Source of the DNA: Candidatus Gastranaerophilales bacterium
GTDB lineage: Bacteria > Cyanobacteriota > Vampirovibrionia > Gastranaerophilales > Gastranaerophilaceae
Direction: 5' to 3'
Assembly (NCBI GenBank): GCA_947588745.1
Contig: CANPYW010000001.1
Coordinates: 1-64,000, forward strand
Length of the DNA: 64,000 bases
The translations under genes and the position numbers were made by a program. The notes below the pieces were generated by a model. It made no database searches, was not told the origin of the DNA, and worked only from the letters and a program-made list of their open reading frames with translations. Positions 7,917 through 35,065 of this stretch are shown here, one piece after another. Within the stretch, counting starts at the first letter, position 1, and every line of letters starts with the position of its first letter.

Positions 7917-7953
7917 ATTCGGGGCGGGGCGAAAAATTCGCCCCGCCCCGAAT
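7917..7953. terminator. strong intrinsic terminator, probably bidirectional
   Basis: A perfect 17-bp GC-rich stem (arms 7917-7933 and 7937-7953, loop of three A) is followed by a T run at 7955-7960 on the plus strand and by TTTT on the minus strand. It lies between the small plus-strand gene and the end of the autotransporter gene and can end both transcripts. It is by far the most GC-rich hairpin I noticed in the window. Confidence 0.9.
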
Positions 7954-7974: not shown

Positions 7975-10902
7975 TTATTTATTCAGACTTAATTTTATTT
8001 GTGTTTTCGGTAATTCGGGAGTATGAGCTTTTGTAATTGCACTTTCATCTTTACCAAGGGTTATTCTTAATCCTGCTTGAAGCCCGATACCGTTTCTTCC
8101 GCCATTTGTGATATAAGTTTGGAAAAATCCGGTGAGTCTTTCGCCTATGGTCTTACGAACGCCAATGCCGTATTTTACAAACGGTTTAACGCTTAACTCG
8201 GGAAGTGTTGCATCGGATGCCCGGAATTGAGTTTTATCCATAACGTTCCAAACAACGCTTACGCCCGCATAAGGCTGCCATCCGTTATTTAAGTTACCGA
8301 TAAACTTTAATCCGGGTTCGAAAGTAATAGCATTAAGAGGATCGGAATTTACTCTTATTCCTGCAGCATTTGTATAATCAAAAGTATTAACAAAAGAATA
8401 AGACATCATATAATTTGGTTGGATAATAAATTTTCCGTCGGCAAGTTCCCAATTGTAGCCCGTTTTAGCTGCGATACCCGACATTAAAAGAGTAAAATCA
8501 TCAGAACCGTACATAGTATCAGCATTAGCTATGTTAGAGCCGACGTTAGCGGTTAAACCCGCAAAGTAATTATCTTTATAAGCCATACCGACTACACCCA
8601 GCGTAGCACCGTTTTGATAGATATCAATTCCGTTATAAGCCTGATGAGAGCCGTTATAACCCAAGTAAGCCCCGAACATACCGTCCCATCCGTGTCCTAA
8701 ATCAATAAGTTCGGAGTCAGCACCGAAGAAAGAACCCCAAGCCACGTTAGAAACTTCAGTTCCACCTTTTAATCGGACATTTTCAAACGTTCCGTAAGGT
8801 CTAAACCAGGCCGAGGTATTATCATAAGGAGTATTAGTCGGGTCAAATACCAAGTTAGAATCAGCAGCCGCATATTTGTTTTTGTTTTTCAATGTTTGAC
8901 GTTGAGATTTAGTCATTAACATATACATATCCATATTACGGAATGCTTCATCGTATGAATTTAACTGATTTAAGTAGCCTCCGATTTGAGCCGCTATCGG
9001 AGCCGCCATAACGGCAGGGTTAAAGTCATTATAGCTGTTACCCGTAGGTGCAAAGCTGATACCGTTTGTGCTGCTTGTCGCATTTAACCATCTTAAAGGC
9101 GATAAAGCTTTATGTGATACCCCGTCTTTAATATTCAACTGACTTGAGTATAATCCCATATTCTTCGCCAATTGTTCTTTTGAAATATTACCGTAGCTTA
9201 AAAGAGTATCGGGAATAAAGTTAAAGTCCTCTAACGTAACACCTCTTATTGCCCATAATTTATCAGTTTGACCGGTAGCGGAACTTATATCTACGGATAC
9301 GGAAGTTCCGGGACGCATCAAGCCAAGATTAGCCCTGAAATCATCAAAATGGTCGTTCATTAAATCCAAATGACCACCCATGTTTACCTTAGCATCTTTA
9401 TCAAATTGTGTATTAGCACCAAGGTGAAGATAGCTATTGTTATCAACGGTGATAATTCCCGAAATAAGACCGTCGTTATATACGCTGCTGCCTTGTGTAA
9501 GATTTGTATTACCCGTAATTTTACCGTCAATATTGTTATTAACGATTGCACCGCCCTGTATATTTGTGTTTTCCATTGTGCCGCTGTTATTAACGGTTGT
9601 TTCGCCTTTAACTGTTCCTGAAATTTTTCCGTCTTTACGGTTATTAACGGTTAATCCGCCGCCTTCTGCAGCTTCTACGGTTCCCGAAACGACACTCGAA
9701 TTGTTCACCGTTGAGCTGCTTCCCGTAATTGAACCTAATTTACCTTCGGCATTATTATTAACAACCGCTCCGTTGCTCAATGAGACAGACTCTATCTCTC
9801 CGCTGTTATTTACGGTAGCGTTGTCATTGTCAATTTCGCCCGATACTTTATTTTTTGAAGTGTTATTGAAAACACCGCCGTTTTTATTTGTAAATTTTTT
9901 ACCTAACTTGCCGTTATCCGTATTATTAAAGATGGCGTTATCGTTTGTAACTTCTCCGGTAACTTCACCCGAATTGGTAAAATTACCGCCTGATGAGTTA
10001 GTAACGTTACCGGATACTATTCCCGTGTTTTTAAAAGTCGAGCCGTCTTTATTTTCTGCGGTAGTCAATTGGGAATTTTCCGAGTTAACAAAAAGTCCGC
10101 CATTTTGGTTGACAACTTTATCCATTGTACCGCCTATGTTTGATGCAGTACCTCCGTCATTTATAAGCCCGCCGGTATAACTTCCGTCATTTGTAAATGT
10201 ACCGGTGTTTATCATTTCCGTTTCGCTTTTATAGGTACCGGAGTTATGGAATTGTCCCGAATTGGAAATATCGGCTTCTCCCTTATTTGTAAATTCGGTT
10301 CCTTTACTTATAAAGAAAAGTCCGTCTGTTTCTATATCTTTATTATTGGTTGTATTTTCAGTAAGAAACATAGTAGCTTCTTTAAGATTTTTAAGCAATC
10401 CATCGTTTGTAAAACTGCCGTTAAAGAAGCCTGAATTAGTAAAATTACCTTTATTTGTAAGACTTCCGCTACTTACAAAATTTCCGTCGTTAACTAAAGC
10501 TCCGCCTTCATTGACGGTAATATTTCCATTGTTAACAAATCCGTCTTTGTTATCTATGCTCCCGCCTTCATTAACTGTAATATTTCCATTGTTCAAAAAT
10601 TTGCCCTTGCTGTTTTCTATTTTATCATTTTCGCCTTTAGCGTTTTTGCCGACAACAACATTTCCCGAGTTTGTAAAATTACCATTGCCCGAGTTCTTTA
10701 ATGAACCTGTGAATGTATTTCCATTAGTAGTATTTACGGAAACATTTCCATTCCCCGAATTTGTAACTGAACCTGTACTTTGTCCTGAGAATGACACGTT
10801 TTTGTCACCATGGTCAAAATTTATATTATATTCCCTAGACATTGCAGCTTGGCTTATCATGCATGAAAGCAACACGACAGCAAGAACTCTTTTTCTTTTC
10901 AT
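7975..10902 (-). CDS. autotransporter adhesin (type Va secretion)
   Basis: A 975-residue surface protein. Residues 1-22 are a signal peptide (MKRKRVLAVVLLSCMISQAA). Residues about 25-560 are a low-complexity passenger of repeats such as GGxFxNSGxVxGxVxN, rich in Asn, Gly, Ser and Thr, expected to fold as a beta-helix. A linker with NPAVMAAPIAAQIGGYLNQL follows. The last about 280 residues (from SAWFRPYGTFENV) look like an autotransporter beta-barrel, with GWDGMFGAYLGYNGSHQAY. An extra 25-residue tail (KDESAITKAHTPELPKTQ...) follows the final strand GLQAGLRITLG, which is unusual since barrels normally end in an aromatic residue. The start is set by AAAGGAG. Transcription starts from a promoter with a homopolymer spacer. 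Confidence 0.85.
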   Translation of the reverse strand: MKRKRVLAVVLLSCMISQAAMSREYNINFDHGDKNVSFSGQSTGSVTNSGNGNVSVNTTNGNTFTGSLKNSGNGNFTNSGNVVVGKNAKGENDKIENSKGKFLNNGNITVNEGGSIDNKDGFVNNGNITVNEGGALVNDGNFVSSGSLTNKGNFTNSGFFNGSFTNDGLLKNLKEATMFLTENTTNNKDIETDGLFFISKGTEFTNKGEADISNSGQFHNSGTYKSETEMINTGTFTNDGSYTGGLINDGGTASNIGGTMDKVVNQNGGLFVNSENSQLTTAENKDGSTFKNTGIVSGNVTNSSGGNFTNSGEVTGEVTNDNAIFNNTDNGKLGKKFTNKNGGVFNNTSKNKVSGEIDNDNATVNNSGEIESVSLSNGAVVNNNAEGKLGSITGSSSTVNNSSVVSGTVEAAEGGGLTVNNRKDGKISGTVKGETTVNNSGTMENTNIQGGAIVNNNIDGKITGNTNLTQGSSVYNDGLISGIITVDNNSYLHLGANTQFDKDAKVNMGGHLDLMNDHFDDFRANLGLMRPGTSVSVDISSATGQTDKLWAIRGVTLEDFNFIPDTLLSYGNISKEQLAKNMGLYSSQLNIKDGVSHKALSPLRWLNATSSTNGISFAPTGNSYNDFNPAVMAAPIAAQIGGYLNQLNSYDEAFRNMDMYMLMTKSQRQTLKNKNKYAAADSNLVFDPTNTPYDNTSAWFRPYGTFENVRLKGGTEVSNVAWGSFFGADSELIDLGHGWDGMFGAYLGYNGSHQAYNGIDIYQNGATLGVVGMAYKDNYFAGLTANVGSNIANADTMYGSDDFTLLMSGIAAKTGYNWELADGKFIIQPNYMMSYSFVNTFDYTNAAGIRVNSDPLNAITFEPGLKFIGNLNNGWQPYAGVSVVWNVMDKTQFRASDATLPELSVKPFVKYGIGVRKTIGERLTGFFQTYITNGGRNGIGLQAGLRITLGKDESAITKAHTPELPKTQIKLSLNK

Positions 10903-10966
10903 ACTTCTCCTTTATTTTTAATCTATTCTTAATCCCGGTTGTTTGACTATCTCATAAGACAAATAA

Positions 10967-10993
10967 ATTATAAGGGGGGGGGGAAAATGTCAA
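10967..10993 (-). promoter_or_regulatory. consensus promoter with a C10 tract in its spacer (phase-variable type)
   Basis: Read on the minus strand, TTGACA (10988-10993) is followed by TTTT, ten C (plus-strand G run 10974-10983), T, then TATAAT (10967-10972). The spacer is 15 bases; two extra C would give the optimal 17. It lies 65 bases upstream of the autotransporter ATG and points at it. Homopolymer-spaced promoters of this kind switch expression through slipped-strand mispairing in Neisseria (porA, opc). Boxes and tract are seen directly; switching is inference. Confidence 0.85.
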
Positions 10994-11048: not shown

Positions 11049-11082
11049 AAAATACCCGAGGACAGGTGCCTTGGGGTATTTT
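11049..11082 (-). terminator. intrinsic terminator after the 11098-11589 gene
   Basis: Arms AAAATACCC (11049-11057) and GGGTATTTT (11074-11082) pair, and the inner GAGG/CCTT can extend the stem. On the minus strand a T-rich stretch follows. It sits directly downstream of the minus-strand gene ending at 11098. Confidence 0.65.
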
Positions 11083-11097
11083 TGATATTCGATTTTA

Positions 11098-11589
11098 TTA
11101 TTTTATCGTATCATCTTTCATTCGAAAAGTGCGTACCATGGTAAATTTAGGCTTATCACCCCGGGGTGATAATTTTGCAACCCGGCCGACTATTTCGCCG
11201 TTGCCATCCGCCAAGTCATAAACATCGTCGGAATTGTTGTCGTTATATTTTATTCGATAGGCACAGGGATAATTTACGGGTAAATCAACGGAATTTTTTA
11301 ATATATTATCCGTATCATCCCGCATGTCGGCTGTCCAATTTATTGCGAAATGAGGTTTTTCATCTCCCGTATTTTCTATAACACCCACATCATAGTGCCT
11401 GCCCGGTTCTAAATCGTTAAATTCGATTTGTTCGTTGTTTCCTTTCACAAAATCGCTGACTTGAGTACCCGTTACGGTATCAAAAAGCCCGTAAGCTCTT
11501 TGCGAAAGTGTACAATCTATTACAATTCTTCTCGGTTGCGGAACTAACACAACTTCAGGCATTTCATCAGTAAATTTTTCTTGTTTCAT
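11098..11589 (-). CDS. hypothetical protein (163 aa)
   Basis: The start at 11589 has AGGAGAAGTT immediately upstream. The protein begins MKQEKFTDEMPEVVLVPQPR and has no signal peptide or membrane helix. Central segments such as FNDLEPGRHYDVGVIENTGD look like beta-strands of an immunoglobulin- or fibronectin-like fold, but this is only an impression. The C-terminal part has an Asp-rich stretch (NDNNSDDVYDLADGNGE). Not recognised. It is followed by its own terminator and lies upstream of the adhesin on the same strand; the adhesin has a separate promoter. Confidence 0.6.
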   Translation of the reverse strand: MKQEKFTDEMPEVVLVPQPRRIVIDCTLSQRAYGLFDTVTGTQVSDFVKGNNEQIEFNDLEPGRHYDVGVIENTGDEKPHFAINWTADMRDDTDNILKNSVDLPVNYPCAYRIKYNDNNSDDVYDLADGNGEIVGRVAKLSPRGDKPKFTMVRTFRMKDDTIK

Positions 11590-29959: not shown

Positions 29960-30994
29960 ATGGTAAACAAATGCTGCGAGTTTATGCTTCATCAAATTGC
30001 ATTTTATAAAGATACAATAAGACCTTGCTGCTCATTTTCCATTCAAGGTGATATTACGCCGTTTATTAATAATTATAACGGAGAAATTAATGAGATTAAA
30101 AACTACCTTGAAAAAAGACAGAACTTTATTAAAATATTTCAAGACGGCGGTAAACCGGAATGTTATAATGGCTGCACAACATATCAAGAATGCAAAGATA
30201 ATGATGAAATTAGTTTTAAACTAAATAACATCATTATTTCAAATCATACAAAATGTTCATGTAATTGTATGTACTGCGAGCAAGCCGAATTCGGACAGAA
30301 TAAAAAATTAAAAACTTATTTGAATACCAGGATACCTTATGATATTAAGCCAATTTTATTACACTTAAGAGCAAATAATTACATTGAAGAAAATTGCAGA
30401 TATATCATCTGCGGCGGTGAATGCAGTGAGTATCCAAAAGGTGAGCTTGAATGGCTTATATACTTTTGTATGCATACAAAAGGAAATTTACTTCTTTTAA
30501 GTTCCGGAATTAATTATTCTAATGCGATTGAGAAGGCATTAAAATCTTCAGAATCAATTTTAAAGATTTCCGTTGATTCAGGTACAAAACCGACCTATGA
30601 ACGCATTAAAAGAGTAAAAGCTTATGACAGAGTGTGGAAAAATATTAAAAATTATATAAAAAGTTCTGAAAATAATTCCAAATCAAGAGTGGAATTAAAA
30701 TATATTTTGCTTAAAGATATTAATGATAATAAAAATGAAATTGATAAATTTTTAAAGAAGTGTGAAGATGTTAATTGCAGGTTTATTATTCTTGATGTTG
30801 AACATCAATACATAAAAGCCAATAAATATAACGAAACAGCAAAAAAAGAAATATCCGAATTATTGAACTATTTCTTTTCTGAAGTTTCAAAATATCCCAA
30901 TCATCCGTTTATCAGCTTAGAAGGTGTTGAAGAGGACTGGCTTTGGTCATTAGTAGATGATAAATACAACTATAAAAATGGTAAACAGAAATGA
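29960..30994 (+). CDS. radical SAM protein, tandem array copy 1
   Basis: 344 residues. An N-terminal cysteine module (NKCCEFMLHQIAFYKDTIRP with CC at 23-24, then PECYNGCTTYQEC at 67-78) precedes the radical SAM triad Cys 99, Cys 103, Cys 106 in TKCSCNCMYCEQ. Further on are CGGECSEYPKGELEWLIYF (GGE at 152-154), LKISVDSGTKPTYERIKRVK and KYILLKDINDNKNEIDKF, all positions of a SAM barrel. The extra cysteines before the triad suggest an auxiliary cluster. GGAG lies seven bases before the ATG. It ends in an ATGA overlap with copy 2. Substrate unknown. Confidence 0.85.
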   Translation: MVNKCCEFMLHQIAFYKDTIRPCCSFSIQGDITPFINNYNGEINEIKNYLEKRQNFIKIFQDGGKPECYNGCTTYQECKDNDEISFKLNNIIISNHTKCSCNCMYCEQAEFGQNKKLKTYLNTRIPYDIKPILLHLRANNYIEENCRYIICGGECSEYPKGELEWLIYFCMHTKGNLLLLSSGINYSNAIEKALKSSESILKISVDSGTKPTYERIKRVKAYDRVWKNIKNYIKSSENNSKSRVELKYILLKDINDNKNEIDKFLKKCEDVNCRFIILDVEHQYIKANKYNETAKKEISELLNYFFSEVSKYPNHPFISLEGVEEDWLWSLVDDKYNYKNGKQK

Positions 30995-31953
30995 AATTCA
31001 ATTGTTGTGATTATTTATTACACGAACTAGTTTTCGCCCAAGATACAATTATTCCATGCTGCTGTGCCCCACGACATGAGTATGAAACAAGATTTATCCG
31101 GAATTTTAACGGTATAGATTTTGATGCGGAAGAATATATCACAACAAGAAACAAATACGTTGAGTTATTCAAATCAGGCAGTGCTCCGGACTGCTGTAAA
31201 GGGTGTTCTTTTATAAAAAACAGCGAATGGGATGAAAGTCTTTATATTAAAAGAATTATTATAACGAACAGAACAAAATGCTCTTGTAATTGCATTTATT
31301 GCTCGCTTATAACAACAAGCACGCAAACAAAACAAGAATTAAATACAAGAAAGACTTATAATATAATCGAAGTTCTAAAAAATTTAAGGGAAAAAAATCT
31401 TATAAATAAGAACTGCGAATTAGTTATAGCCGGTGGAGAATGCTGTGAATATCCTAATGGCGAGCTGGAATTTATAATTTATTTTGCATTGCTTATAAAC
31501 TGTAAATTAGAAATTTTAAGTTCAGGAATTATATACTCTAAAGCCATAGAGAATGCACTTAAAACAGGTGAATGTGTCCTAAAAATTTCAGTTGATTCCG
31601 GAAGAAAATCAACTTATGAAAAAATAAAAAGAGTAAAAGCCTACGAAAAAGTATGGAAAAATCTTGGCGATTATATTAATGTTTCCCAAAATAATCTACT
31701 AGCCAAAGTAAAAATTAAATATATACTTTTACCGGGCATTAATGATAATATAAAAGAAGCAAAGGTCTTTGTAAAAAAATGCAAAGAAATAAACTGTAAA
31801 TATATTGAACTTGCAGTCGAATATTTATGGTTTGATAAGAATAAAGATTATCCTATTCCTGATTCAATCAGACGAACCGTAAAATGCATAAAGCAATCCG
31901 GAATGAATATATCCTATGAAGGTCAGTGTATAGAATATCTTGAAAAAATATAA
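30991..31953 (+). CDS. radical SAM protein, tandem array copy 2
   Basis: 320 residues, same plan as copy 1: FNCCDYLLHELVFAQDTIIP with CCC at 23-25, PDCCKGCSF near 67-73, triad Cys 97, 101, 104 in TKCSCNCIYCSL, GGECCEYPNGELEF, LKISVDSGRKSTYEKIKRVK and KYILLPGINDNIKEAK. The start overlaps the stop of copy 1 by four bases, so translation is coupled. Closest to copies 1 and 3. The C-terminus is shorter than in copy 1. The role cannot be told from sequence. Confidence 0.85.
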   Translation: MKFNCCDYLLHELVFAQDTIIPCCCAPRHEYETRFIRNFNGIDFDAEEYITTRNKYVELFKSGSAPDCCKGCSFIKNSEWDESLYIKRIIITNRTKCSCNCIYCSLITTSTQTKQELNTRKTYNIIEVLKNLREKNLINKNCELVIAGGECCEYPNGELEFIIYFALLINCKLEILSSGIIYSKAIENALKTGECVLKISVDSGRKSTYEKIKRVKAYEKVWKNLGDYINVSQNNLLAKVKIKYILLPGINDNIKEAKVFVKKCKEINCKYIELAVEYLWFDKNKDYPIPDSIRRTVKCIKQSGMNISYEGQCIEYLEKI

Positions 31954-31964
31954 AGAGATACAAA

Positions 31965-32945
31965 ATGAGATATAAATGCTGTGATTATTTACTTCACCAA
32001 ATAGTTTTTGACCAAACAGATATCAAGCCTTGTTGTGCAACATCAATGAATAAAGAATCCGCAAAATTCATTGATAATTTCAACGGTGGAGATTTTGATA
32101 TAGATGAATATATAAAACAAAGAAATCAGTATATAGAAATGTTCAAACAAGGCAACATTCCTAACTGCTGTAAAGATTGTCCTATGATTAGAGAAGATGA
32201 TTGGGATGAAAAAAATCTTTATTTTGACAGAATAATAATGGCTAATATAGCGAAATGCTCTTGTAATTGCATTTATTGCGTATATACATACAATAATCCT
32301 GAATTAAAACAGTATTATAATACAAAAAAATCTTATGATATTAAGCCTATCTTAAAAAAGTTAAGAGATAGCAACCTGTTAAACAACAATATATTGCTGA
32401 TAATAGGCGGCGGAGAATGCAGCGAATTTCCGAAAGGTGAGCTTGAATGGCTTATTTATTTTACTTCTTTTAACAACGGTAGAATACAAATTTTAAGTTC
32501 AGGAATAAAATATTCAAAAGCAATAGAACAAATATTACGCTATGGAAAAGCAGAATTATCAATTTCACCTGATTCAGGAACAAAAAAGACTTTTGAAAAA
32601 ATCAAACGAGTAAAAGCATTTGAACAAGTATGGGAAAATCTAACACGATATATTAACGCTGCCAATACAAATAAAAACGCAATGGCTGAAATTAAGTATA
32701 TTATAATTCCAAACATTAATGATAATATTTCAGAAGTAAAAAGCTTTTTAAACAAATGTAAAAAAATCAACTGCAAAAATCTGCACATAGATGTAGAACA
32801 TCACTGGTATGCCGAAAATAAAAACAAACCCGTACCTGAAAAAATAAAGACTATCATTAAATATATAAACCAAAATAAACAGGATATGTATGTTTCATAT
32901 TCGGTTGAAACTAATAATTGGCTAAATCAGTGCAACGGAGATTAA
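31965..32945 (+). CDS. radical SAM protein, tandem array copy 3
   Basis: 326 residues: YKCCDYLLHQIVFDQTDIKP with CC at 23-24, PNCCKDCPM near 67-73, triad Cys 98, 102, 105 in AKCSCNCIYCVY, GGGECSEFPKGELEWLIYF, LSISPDSGTKKTFEKIKRVK and KYIIIPNINDNISEVK. It differs from the others in having SPDSG where they have SVDSG or SVDAG. Eleven bases separate it from copy 2. Strong resemblance to copies 1 and 2 shows recent duplication. Confidence 0.85.
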   Translation: MRYKCCDYLLHQIVFDQTDIKPCCATSMNKESAKFIDNFNGGDFDIDEYIKQRNQYIEMFKQGNIPNCCKDCPMIREDDWDEKNLYFDRIIMANIAKCSCNCIYCVYTYNNPELKQYYNTKKSYDIKPILKKLRDSNLLNNNILLIIGGGECSEFPKGELEWLIYFTSFNNGRIQILSSGIKYSKAIEQILRYGKAELSISPDSGTKKTFEKIKRVKAFEQVWENLTRYINAANTNKNAMAEIKYIIIPNINDNISEVKSFLNKCKKINCKNLHIDVEHHWYAENKNKPVPEKIKTIIKYINQNKQDMYVSYSVETNNWLNQCNGD

Positions 32946-32951
32946 TAACTT

Positions 32952-33989
32952 ATGAAATATATGAGCTGCGGATTTATTCAATACGGAATTGAATTTAGAT
33001 TTGAAAATGAAATTAGACTTTGTTCTCAAGTAAGCCACATAGGCGGAGGGAAAATATATTTATTAAAAAATTTTGACCCCCAAAAACCTGACATAGATAA
33101 AATTATAAAAACCAGAGAAGAGATAATTAACAGTTTTAAGCAGGGCATTATATATCCTAATTGTAAAGGATGTATGGACTTAAAAGAAATGGACATGCCC
33201 GAAGATATTCCTAAAATTAAAATATTAGTGCTTCAATATTGGACAAAATGCAATTCAAAATGCAGCTATTGTTATACAAATCAGGATAAAGAATATTTTA
33301 ATTCACTCAAAAACTATGAAATTTATCCTATTTTAAAAGAAATGCATAAAAAGGGTATTTTAGATAACAACGGAATAGCTAACTTTTCAGGAGGCGAAGT
33401 TTCCTGTTTAAAGGAGTTTTCTAAAGTAGTTAAATTTTTAGATAAACTTAATTATTACATTATAATTAATACATCAGGCGTAAAATACGAAAGAATAATA
33501 GAAAAAAGATTGAAAAAAGGCAATGGCTGCATAGTTATTTCCGTTGATGCGGGGTCAAAGAAAGTTCACGAGAAAATAAAGCAAGTAAAAAGTTATGATA
33601 AAGTTTGGTCAAACATTAAAAATTATGCAAAACACCAAAAACTATCTCATCTTGTGAATATCAAATATATAATAGTTCCGGGAATAAATGATAATGAAGA
33701 AGAAATCAATCTATGGCTTGCTAAATGCAAAGAAGCAGGAGTTCATAATGTTGTTTTAGGTATTGATGCCAACTATTTTGAACCAAACAGAAACAATATT
33801 TTCCCTCATATATTTGATTTATTTCACAAAGCAAGAGAACACGCAGAACAAATAGGACTTCGTTTTTACATAGCAAACAGAGCAACTACAATGCTGACAA
33901 AGGGTAAATACGCAGATTCATTCTGGGAAAAATACAGATATGATGAAGGACCTTATACCGATATTTATTTTAAAGATTGCAGGATATAA
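32952..33989 (+). CDS. radical SAM protein, tandem array copy 4
   Basis: 345 residues, a more diverged member: MSCGFIQYGIEFRFENEIRL with Cys 24, PNCKGCMDL at 69-77, triad Cys 100, 104, 107 in TKCNSKCSYCYT, FSGGEVSCLKEF, VISVDAGSKKVHEKIKQVKS and KYIIVPGINDNEEEIN. The N-terminal module has single Cys where copies 1-3 have Cys pairs. GGAG is 12 bases upstream of the ATG, and copy 3 ends seven bases before it. Confidence 0.85.
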   Translation: MKYMSCGFIQYGIEFRFENEIRLCSQVSHIGGGKIYLLKNFDPQKPDIDKIIKTREEIINSFKQGIIYPNCKGCMDLKEMDMPEDIPKIKILVLQYWTKCNSKCSYCYTNQDKEYFNSLKNYEIYPILKEMHKKGILDNNGIANFSGGEVSCLKEFSKVVKFLDKLNYYIIINTSGVKYERIIEKRLKKGNGCIVISVDAGSKKVHEKIKQVKSYDKVWSNIKNYAKHQKLSHLVNIKYIIVPGINDNEEEINLWLAKCKEAGVHNVVLGIDANYFEPNRNNIFPHIFDLFHKAREHAEQIGLRFYIANRATTMLTKGKYADSFWEKYRYDEGPYTDIYFKDCRI

Positions 33990-33991
33990 TT

Positions 33992-35065
33992 ATGTTTAAA
34001 TACTTTAATAATCTAAAAATAAAACAAAATAGCGATAATTCAGCAGATAAACAATTTGTTTCCTGCGAAGCATTAAATTCAAGACTTGTTTTTTTCGGTA
34101 AAAAAATAGCATTTTGTTCAAATGGAAATCCGGCACAAAACAGAGCCTATCCAATTATTTATGATAATATTAATCCTAATAATTTTGAAAAGACTTTTGA
34201 TATTAATAAAATAATAAACTTTATAAGAACAAACAGAAAAAACCTTGAAAACGGTATAATTCCAGCAAGCTGTGAAGGCTGTAATAATCTTGATTCTTAT
34301 CATTATCATAGTGATATAACGAACTTAAAAAATTTTATTGAATATATCCAATTTTCAGATTGGGGATTATGTAATTCAAAATGCATATATTGTAATGCCT
34401 GGACAAACACAAAACAACTTCCCTCCGGTGAATATACAACAAAAAATGCAGAAAAAGATACGTATTTAATCCTTCCGATAATAAAACAGCTTGTTAATAA
34501 TGAAGTAATAACAAAAGATACCACAATTGATTTTGCCGGCGGTGAACCTACTTTATACTGCCAGTTTGAAGAAGCATTAAAATATTTTATTAAATTCGGA
34601 ATAAAAAATATACTGGTTTTTTCAAATATTATCAAATATTCGCCCATTATAGCGGAAGGAATAAAAAAAGGCATTATAACATTAATAGTATCTGTTGATG
34701 CGGGTACAAAAGAAGTTCATCAAAAAGTAAAAGGTGTTGAAAGTTATGACATTGTTTATAAAAATTTAAAACAATATGTACTTTGCGAGAAAAATAAAGG
34801 ACAGGTAGAATCTAAATACGTAATTGTACCTGAAATTAACGATTCTATAGAAGAAATATCTTTCTGGATAGATAAATCAAAAGAAACAGGCATAAACAAA
34901 TTAATACTAAACTTAGATAACAGAGTATTTGAACATGGGACGCCAAACATAGAATTAGTTAAGAAAATAAAAACTTTAACCGATTTTTTTATTGAAAAAA
35001 CTTCTAAACTCAATATTGAAAACGCACTCTATTCAAATATAAAGTTTATTAATCAAATAAAATAA
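33992..35065 (+). CDS. radical SAM protein, tandem array copy 5
   Basis: 357 residues from the ATG at 33992, which has AGGA seven bases upstream and lies two bases after the stop of copy 4. VSCEALNSRLVFFGKKIAFC, PASCEGCNNL at 91-100, triad Cys 127, 131, 134 in GLCNSKCIYCNAW, FAGGEPTLYCQF, LIVSVDAGTKEVHQKVKGVE and KYVIVPEINDSIEEIS. Pairs with copy 4 in sequence (SVDAG, VH.K.K.V.SYD). GGEPTLY is the most canonical radical SAM GGE motif of the five. Last gene of the array. Confidence 0.85.
   Translation: MFKYFNNLKIKQNSDNSADKQFVSCEALNSRLVFFGKKIAFCSNGNPAQNRAYPIIYDNINPNNFEKTFDINKIINFIRTNRKNLENGIIPASCEGCNNLDSYHYHSDITNLKNFIEYIQFSDWGLCNSKCIYCNAWTNTKQLPSGEYTTKNAEKDTYLILPIIKQLVNNEVITKDTTIDFAGGEPTLYCQFEEALKYFIKFGIKNILVFSNIIKYSPIIAEGIKKGIITLIVSVDAGTKEVHQKVKGVESYDIVYKNLKQYVLCEKNKGQVESKYVIVPEINDSIEEISFWIDKSKETGINKLILNLDNRVFEHGTPNIELVKKIKTLTDFFIEKTSKLNIENALYSNIKFINQIK

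Follow-up and report, generated by a model that had tools for sequence, protein, structure and literature searches.

The window analysed here is a 64-kb stretch of DNA (64,000 nucleotides) from a Gastranaerophilales genome, which is available as a 63-contig draft assembly of 2.0 Mb. On the minus strand it contains an open reading frame for a 975-residue protein (positions 7975–10902, ATG at 10902) with a signal peptide, Asn/Gly-rich passenger repeats of the type NxGxFTNxG and a C-terminal barrel. For residues from about 696 to 949 (8056–8817, minus strand) AlphaFold2 predicts a 12-strand translocator beta-barrel (mean pLDDT 76.6), which was matched by Foldseek to EspP, BrkA, Hbp and AIDA-I with E-values of 1e-12 to 1e-14; the NalP translocator domain was also among the best matches to solved structures. 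In the model the barrel is preceded by a helix, as in the type Va autotransporters EspP, BrkA and AIDA-I, which likewise have a signal peptide and a repeat passenger. Unlike them, the 975-residue protein has no match to the PF03797 profile, which was found nowhere in the genome, or to the NCBIfam models, and the identity to these proteins is 13–18%. By its predicted fold, rather than by sequence profiles, the protein is an autotransporter, as the preliminary description of the locus had proposed. Its role in adhesion is inferred. Members of the adhesin family are numerous in the genus, and the closest named records come from Candidatus Gastranaerophilales metagenome-assembled genomes, several of them from the isolate series 'Lapin'.

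The adhesin gene appears to be monocistronic. A hairpin (11050–11084, minus strand; -20.4 kcal/mol for the surrounding stretch) closes the upstream gene for a 163-residue protein (11098–11589), and a strong hairpin terminator (7917–7953, minus strand; -37.1 kcal/mol) follows the adhesin, which suggests a single-gene unit depending on its own promoter. A search of the window against Rfam found nothing, and phage records gave no match.

Read on the minus strand, positions 10993 to 10967 are TTGACA-TTTT-CCCCCCCCCC-T-TATAAT, that is, a -35 box (10988–10993) and a -10 box (10967–10972), both matching the consensus in 6 of 6 positions, and between them a spacer of 15 nt with a tract of exactly ten C residues (C10, 10974–10983), the proposed switch. 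For a tract of n residues the spacer is n+5, so that C10 gives 15 nt and C12 gives 17 nt. A ribosome-binding site AAGGAG (10907–10912, minus strand) stands 4 nt 5' of the ATG, and the distance from the end of the -10 box to the ATG is 64 nt, which is longer than the 31–43 nt common among promoter sites of homologous genes. The letters and positions given for this arrangement in the preliminary description are correct. No other strong promoter candidate was found in the 150 nt 5' of the adhesin, the runner-up having 8 of 12 matches, and the C10 tract is the sole C/G run of at least 7 in the window. As in porA and fetA of Neisseria, the homopolymer lies wholly between the -35 and -10 boxes, and its length is over chance and within the mutable range (at least 8).

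Perfect TTGACA and TATAAT pairs with spacers of 12–22 nt occur 17 times in the genome, versus 15 times for the reversed pattern. Since such pairs are at background level in this AT-rich genome, the boxes by themselves prove little. Their placement around the tract is a separate matter: among the 29 C/G tracts of at least 8 in the genome only the one in the window has a perfect box on either side, and the runner-up reaches 9 of 12 matches. With simulated flanks a 12 of 12 match was obtained for 6e-5 of tracts, i.e., approximately 0.002 are expected for 29 tracts. A perfect box pair bracketing a tract is above background.

The spacing preferred by this gene family was surveyed in 39 distinct regions upstream of adhesin homologues, of which 33 had a best sigma-70-like site with at least 9 matches. 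A 17-nt spacer was found in 17.7 of these 33 cases, compared to 3.0 in shuffled sequences, which indicates that the genes of the adhesin family use putative sigma-70-type promoters with a preference for 17 nt. As the homologous promoters peak at this value, C12 should be optimal and C10, being two nucleotides short, should be weak; the spacer range of the candidate promoter takes in the 17-nt optimum of the organism's promoters, as expected of the porA/fetA type. The preliminary description had assumed that C10 is weak and that C11 and C12 are strong. The predicted weakness of C10 stands, while the optimum is moved to C12, with C11 and C13 near to it.

The indirect tests all favour the interpretation given in the preliminary description, and the locus is probably a phase-variable promoter of the porA/fetA type, which would act as a transcriptional switch of the autotransporter. 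Slipped-strand mispairing would add a single C to the tract or remove one, altering the distance between the two consensus sigma-70 boxes. With C12 (17 nt) the boxes would be optimally aligned and transcription of the autotransporter strong. With C10 (15 nt), the length seen in the assembly, the boxes would be too close to each other and out of rotational register, leaving the gene weak or off. Because tract length would set the register of the boxes and hence transcription, a population would contain cells with high and cells with low adhesin levels side by side.

Several well-studied systems resemble this arrangement. In Neisseria fetA (frpB) a poly-C tract between the -35 and -10 boxes varies from C10 to C14 among strains and the expression of the outer-membrane protein changes (PMC5320596). 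The window locus shares with fetA the poly-C tract in the promoter spacer and the gene for a surface protein downstream; in fetA, however, length variation and expression have been measured, whereas the window locus is known from sequence, belongs to another phylum and precedes an autotransporter. Neisseria porA and Treponema pallidum tp0126 also have homopolymers between the two boxes, with an optimum at 17 nt, in tp0126 of total spacing (PMC7864442). Both have been studied experimentally and differ from the poly-C of the window in that their tracts are poly-G (plus T in porA); tp0126 in addition codes for another class of protein. Together with porA, Neisseria opc had been named as an example of a homopolymer between the boxes, which is right for porA. 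In opc the poly-C tract extends over the -35 region and has been suggested to work via a regulator (PMC7864442). It remains a weaker analogue, in which poly-C length also governs transcription of an adhesin, and the proper models for the window locus are porA and fetA.

The window tract has many counterparts in the rest of the genome. The 29 C/G tracts of at least 8 compare to approximately 0.9 expected from composition, and they are distributed as C8 (4 tracts), C9 (12) and C10 (13), with none longer. Tracts of exactly 7 are represented once, versus 4.9 expected. The lengths thus do not decay but peak at 9–10, which the tail of a random distribution would not do. Many of the tracts are harboured by surface-polysaccharide, adhesin and prepilin genes: four TupA-like ATP-grasp genes, four polysaccharide pyruvyl transferases, a CDP-glycerol glycerophosphotransferase fusion, an AlgX-like acetyltransferase, a methyltransferase, an autotransporter with Chlamydia PMP repeats and, recognised from their sequences, a prepilin and further autotransporter-like genes. 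Some tracts are found where switching looks irrelevant (C8:50537, C12:32693 and those of contig C31), and others are intergenic or in 5' leaders without promoter boxes (C6:6436, C61:7992). One stretch of 73 pyrimidine-rich bases (G000:C31:17245-17317; L045:4001-4073) contains three C9 tracts for which no coding explanation was seen.

Many of the coding tracts have one length that opens the full gene and neighbouring lengths that truncate the frame. At C10:63145 the frame ends 3 codons past the tract with C8 and continues for more than 500 codons with C9; the prepilin gene at C41:8442 is off with C10 and on with C9, and a TupA-like gene at C4:25688 is off with C9 and on with C8. As assembled, C51:5305, C36:1649 and C19:3435 are in the open state and C10:63145, C41:8442, C4:25688 and C16:36153 in the closed state. 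Many tracts outside the window thus have the appearance of translational contingency loci. A phasome is characterised by many over-long C/G tracts that cluster in genes for surface structures and have on and off frames, and the 29 tracts resemble the 29 poly-G/C tracts of at least 7, mostly in surface-structure genes and with lengths of 8–12, reported for Campylobacter jejuni NCTC11168 (PMC4965091), which is, however, of an unrelated lineage and in which the variation has been measured. The proposed switch in the window therefore does not stand alone but belongs to a large number of contingency loci in the lineage. In addition, three autotransporter genes have a G9–G10 tract a few bases 5' of a TTG start (L046:1628-1660, G000:C36:1649; L051:3990-4010, G000:C61:7992; and L113 in genome G030), the length of which could alter ribosome-site spacing or the frame.

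In the other 40 genomes of the genus no strict TTGACA..C7+..TATAAT arrangement was found, and in the order-wide search both perfect boxes were present in no other genome among the matches listed. DNA of the same promoter gave only short AT-rich matches in the genus outside the window, so that there is no orthologous tract for comparison. A loose poly-C promoter pattern showed no clear excess over the reversed control across the order, which indicates that promoter tracts are a minority of the tracts; on inspection, several of the loose C-sense matches turned out to be leaders inside prepilin genes. The G-sense pattern gave 9 matches in the genus versus 0 for the reversed control. One genome (G032) has TTGACA-A-G10-AATGC-TATAAT with a 16-nt spacer 5' of a gene for 337 residues, and another (G035) has three TTGACA-[G9]-TAnnAT sites with spacers of 15, 16 and 17 nt 5' of genes for Cys-rich proteins, the one scanned being radical-SAM-like. 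Homopolymers in putative promoter spacers are thus recurrent in the lineage as a minority of its tracts. As to the comparison with related genomes suggested in the preliminary description, promoters with a tract in the spacer do exist there, and the nearest adhesin homologues have tract-free promoters, meaning that the switch itself is not conserved.

Two sites, G036:C85 (20-nt spacer) and G065:C28, were not counted as clear analogues. The same applies to a noncoding repeat of genome G322, TTGACC-CGC-Gn-TGAC[AG]-TATAAT (L243, L254, L260, L265, L266), in which the tract is 10–18 long, the spacers are 15–24 nt and mostly no gene is close. The window itself contains, at 29960–35065, five adjacent paralogous Cys-rich proteins with CxxxCxxC motifs, which are radical-SAM-like and of the same general type as the protein encoded behind the tract promoter in G035. 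Tract numbers vary widely. Family f1 (43 genomes) has a median of 48 C/G tracts of at least 9 per genome, compared to a median of 3 for the larger genomes of family f8, which belongs to the same class; within the genus 0–119 tracts per genome were counted, and some tracts in other genomes (11–14) are longer than those seen here.

Explanations other than a spacing switch have to be considered. The promoter may be real and its tract effectively fixed, or varying without consequence, if C tracts are tolerated for mutational reasons. The tracts at seemingly irrelevant places would agree with this, but the tract genes are largely surface genes, the frame tracts separate on from off states and the lengths peak at 9–10, and we regard such a neutral tract as unlikely. 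Alternatively, a hypermutable tract could modulate transcription by DNA bending or by the placement of a regulator instead of by the spacing of the sigma boxes. Phase-variable promoters of this sort are reported for nadA and sabA of other bacteria (PMC2791445, PMC4081817), and the box-less intergenic and leader tracts of this genome could be accommodated in the same way. The tract in the window, in contrast, is wholly enclosed by perfect hexamers and its C12 optimum fits the 17-nt preference of the homologues, for which reason a bending or regulator effect is likewise judged unlikely at this locus.

It is also conceivable that the length of the tract, or its position between the boxes, is an error of assembly or a coincidence. 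The genome is indeed a draft, and the absence of tracts longer than 10 could partly reflect assembly. Tracts of the same kind are nevertheless present in dozens of genomes from different projects, as the family f1 median and the longer tracts illustrate, and the placement between perfect boxes has the very low chance expectation given above. This last explanation is therefore considered very improbable, and the porA/fetA-type promoter is the reading preferred here.

Most of the known homopolymer contingency loci are those of host-adapted pathogens. A search of one open-access library for phase variation or adhesins in Melainabacteria or Gastranaerophilales yielded nothing relevant, in line with the earlier remark that no contingency promoter is known in gut bacteria of the Melainabacteria type; a search of this scope does not prove priority. 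The mechanism is already known, and what appears to be new is its probable occurrence in this lineage, as part of an extensive poly-C phasome. More surprising than the promoter switch is how large the phasome of these commensals is. The same contingency logic, translational as well as promoter-based, appears throughout an entire family of uncultured gut commensals, and gut metagenomes would offer a direct read-out in the form of tract-length mixtures at named loci, from which it could be learned which surface structures face fluctuating selection in the host.

The autotransporter-like paralogues at C10:63145 and C51:5305 have 237 identical upstream bases (L037:3764-4008 and L049:5068-5313) followed by C8 (off) and C9 (on), respectively. 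The identity comprises the promoter, the ribosome site and the first codons and stops exactly at the C tract, beyond which the sequences are unrelated. With leaders so nearly identical, the difference between C8 and C9 implies that tract length changed between the copies. In related genera, short leaders centred on a tract recur 5' of many prepilin genes. It is possible, if rather doubtful, that the poly-C tract also serves as a joint or crossover point for the exchange of phase-variable leaders between genes, in which case the tracts would both switch genes and mediate the exchange of regulated leaders. In several genera the first codons of prepilin-like genes contain a poly-C/G tract, 5' of the FTLAEVLITLG motif (L048:4001-4010, i.e., G000:C41:8442, and L136, L137, L140, L246, L248, L249 and L253); these tracts are often situated in repeated leaders, and with its C10 tract the gene of the present genome is in the closed state.
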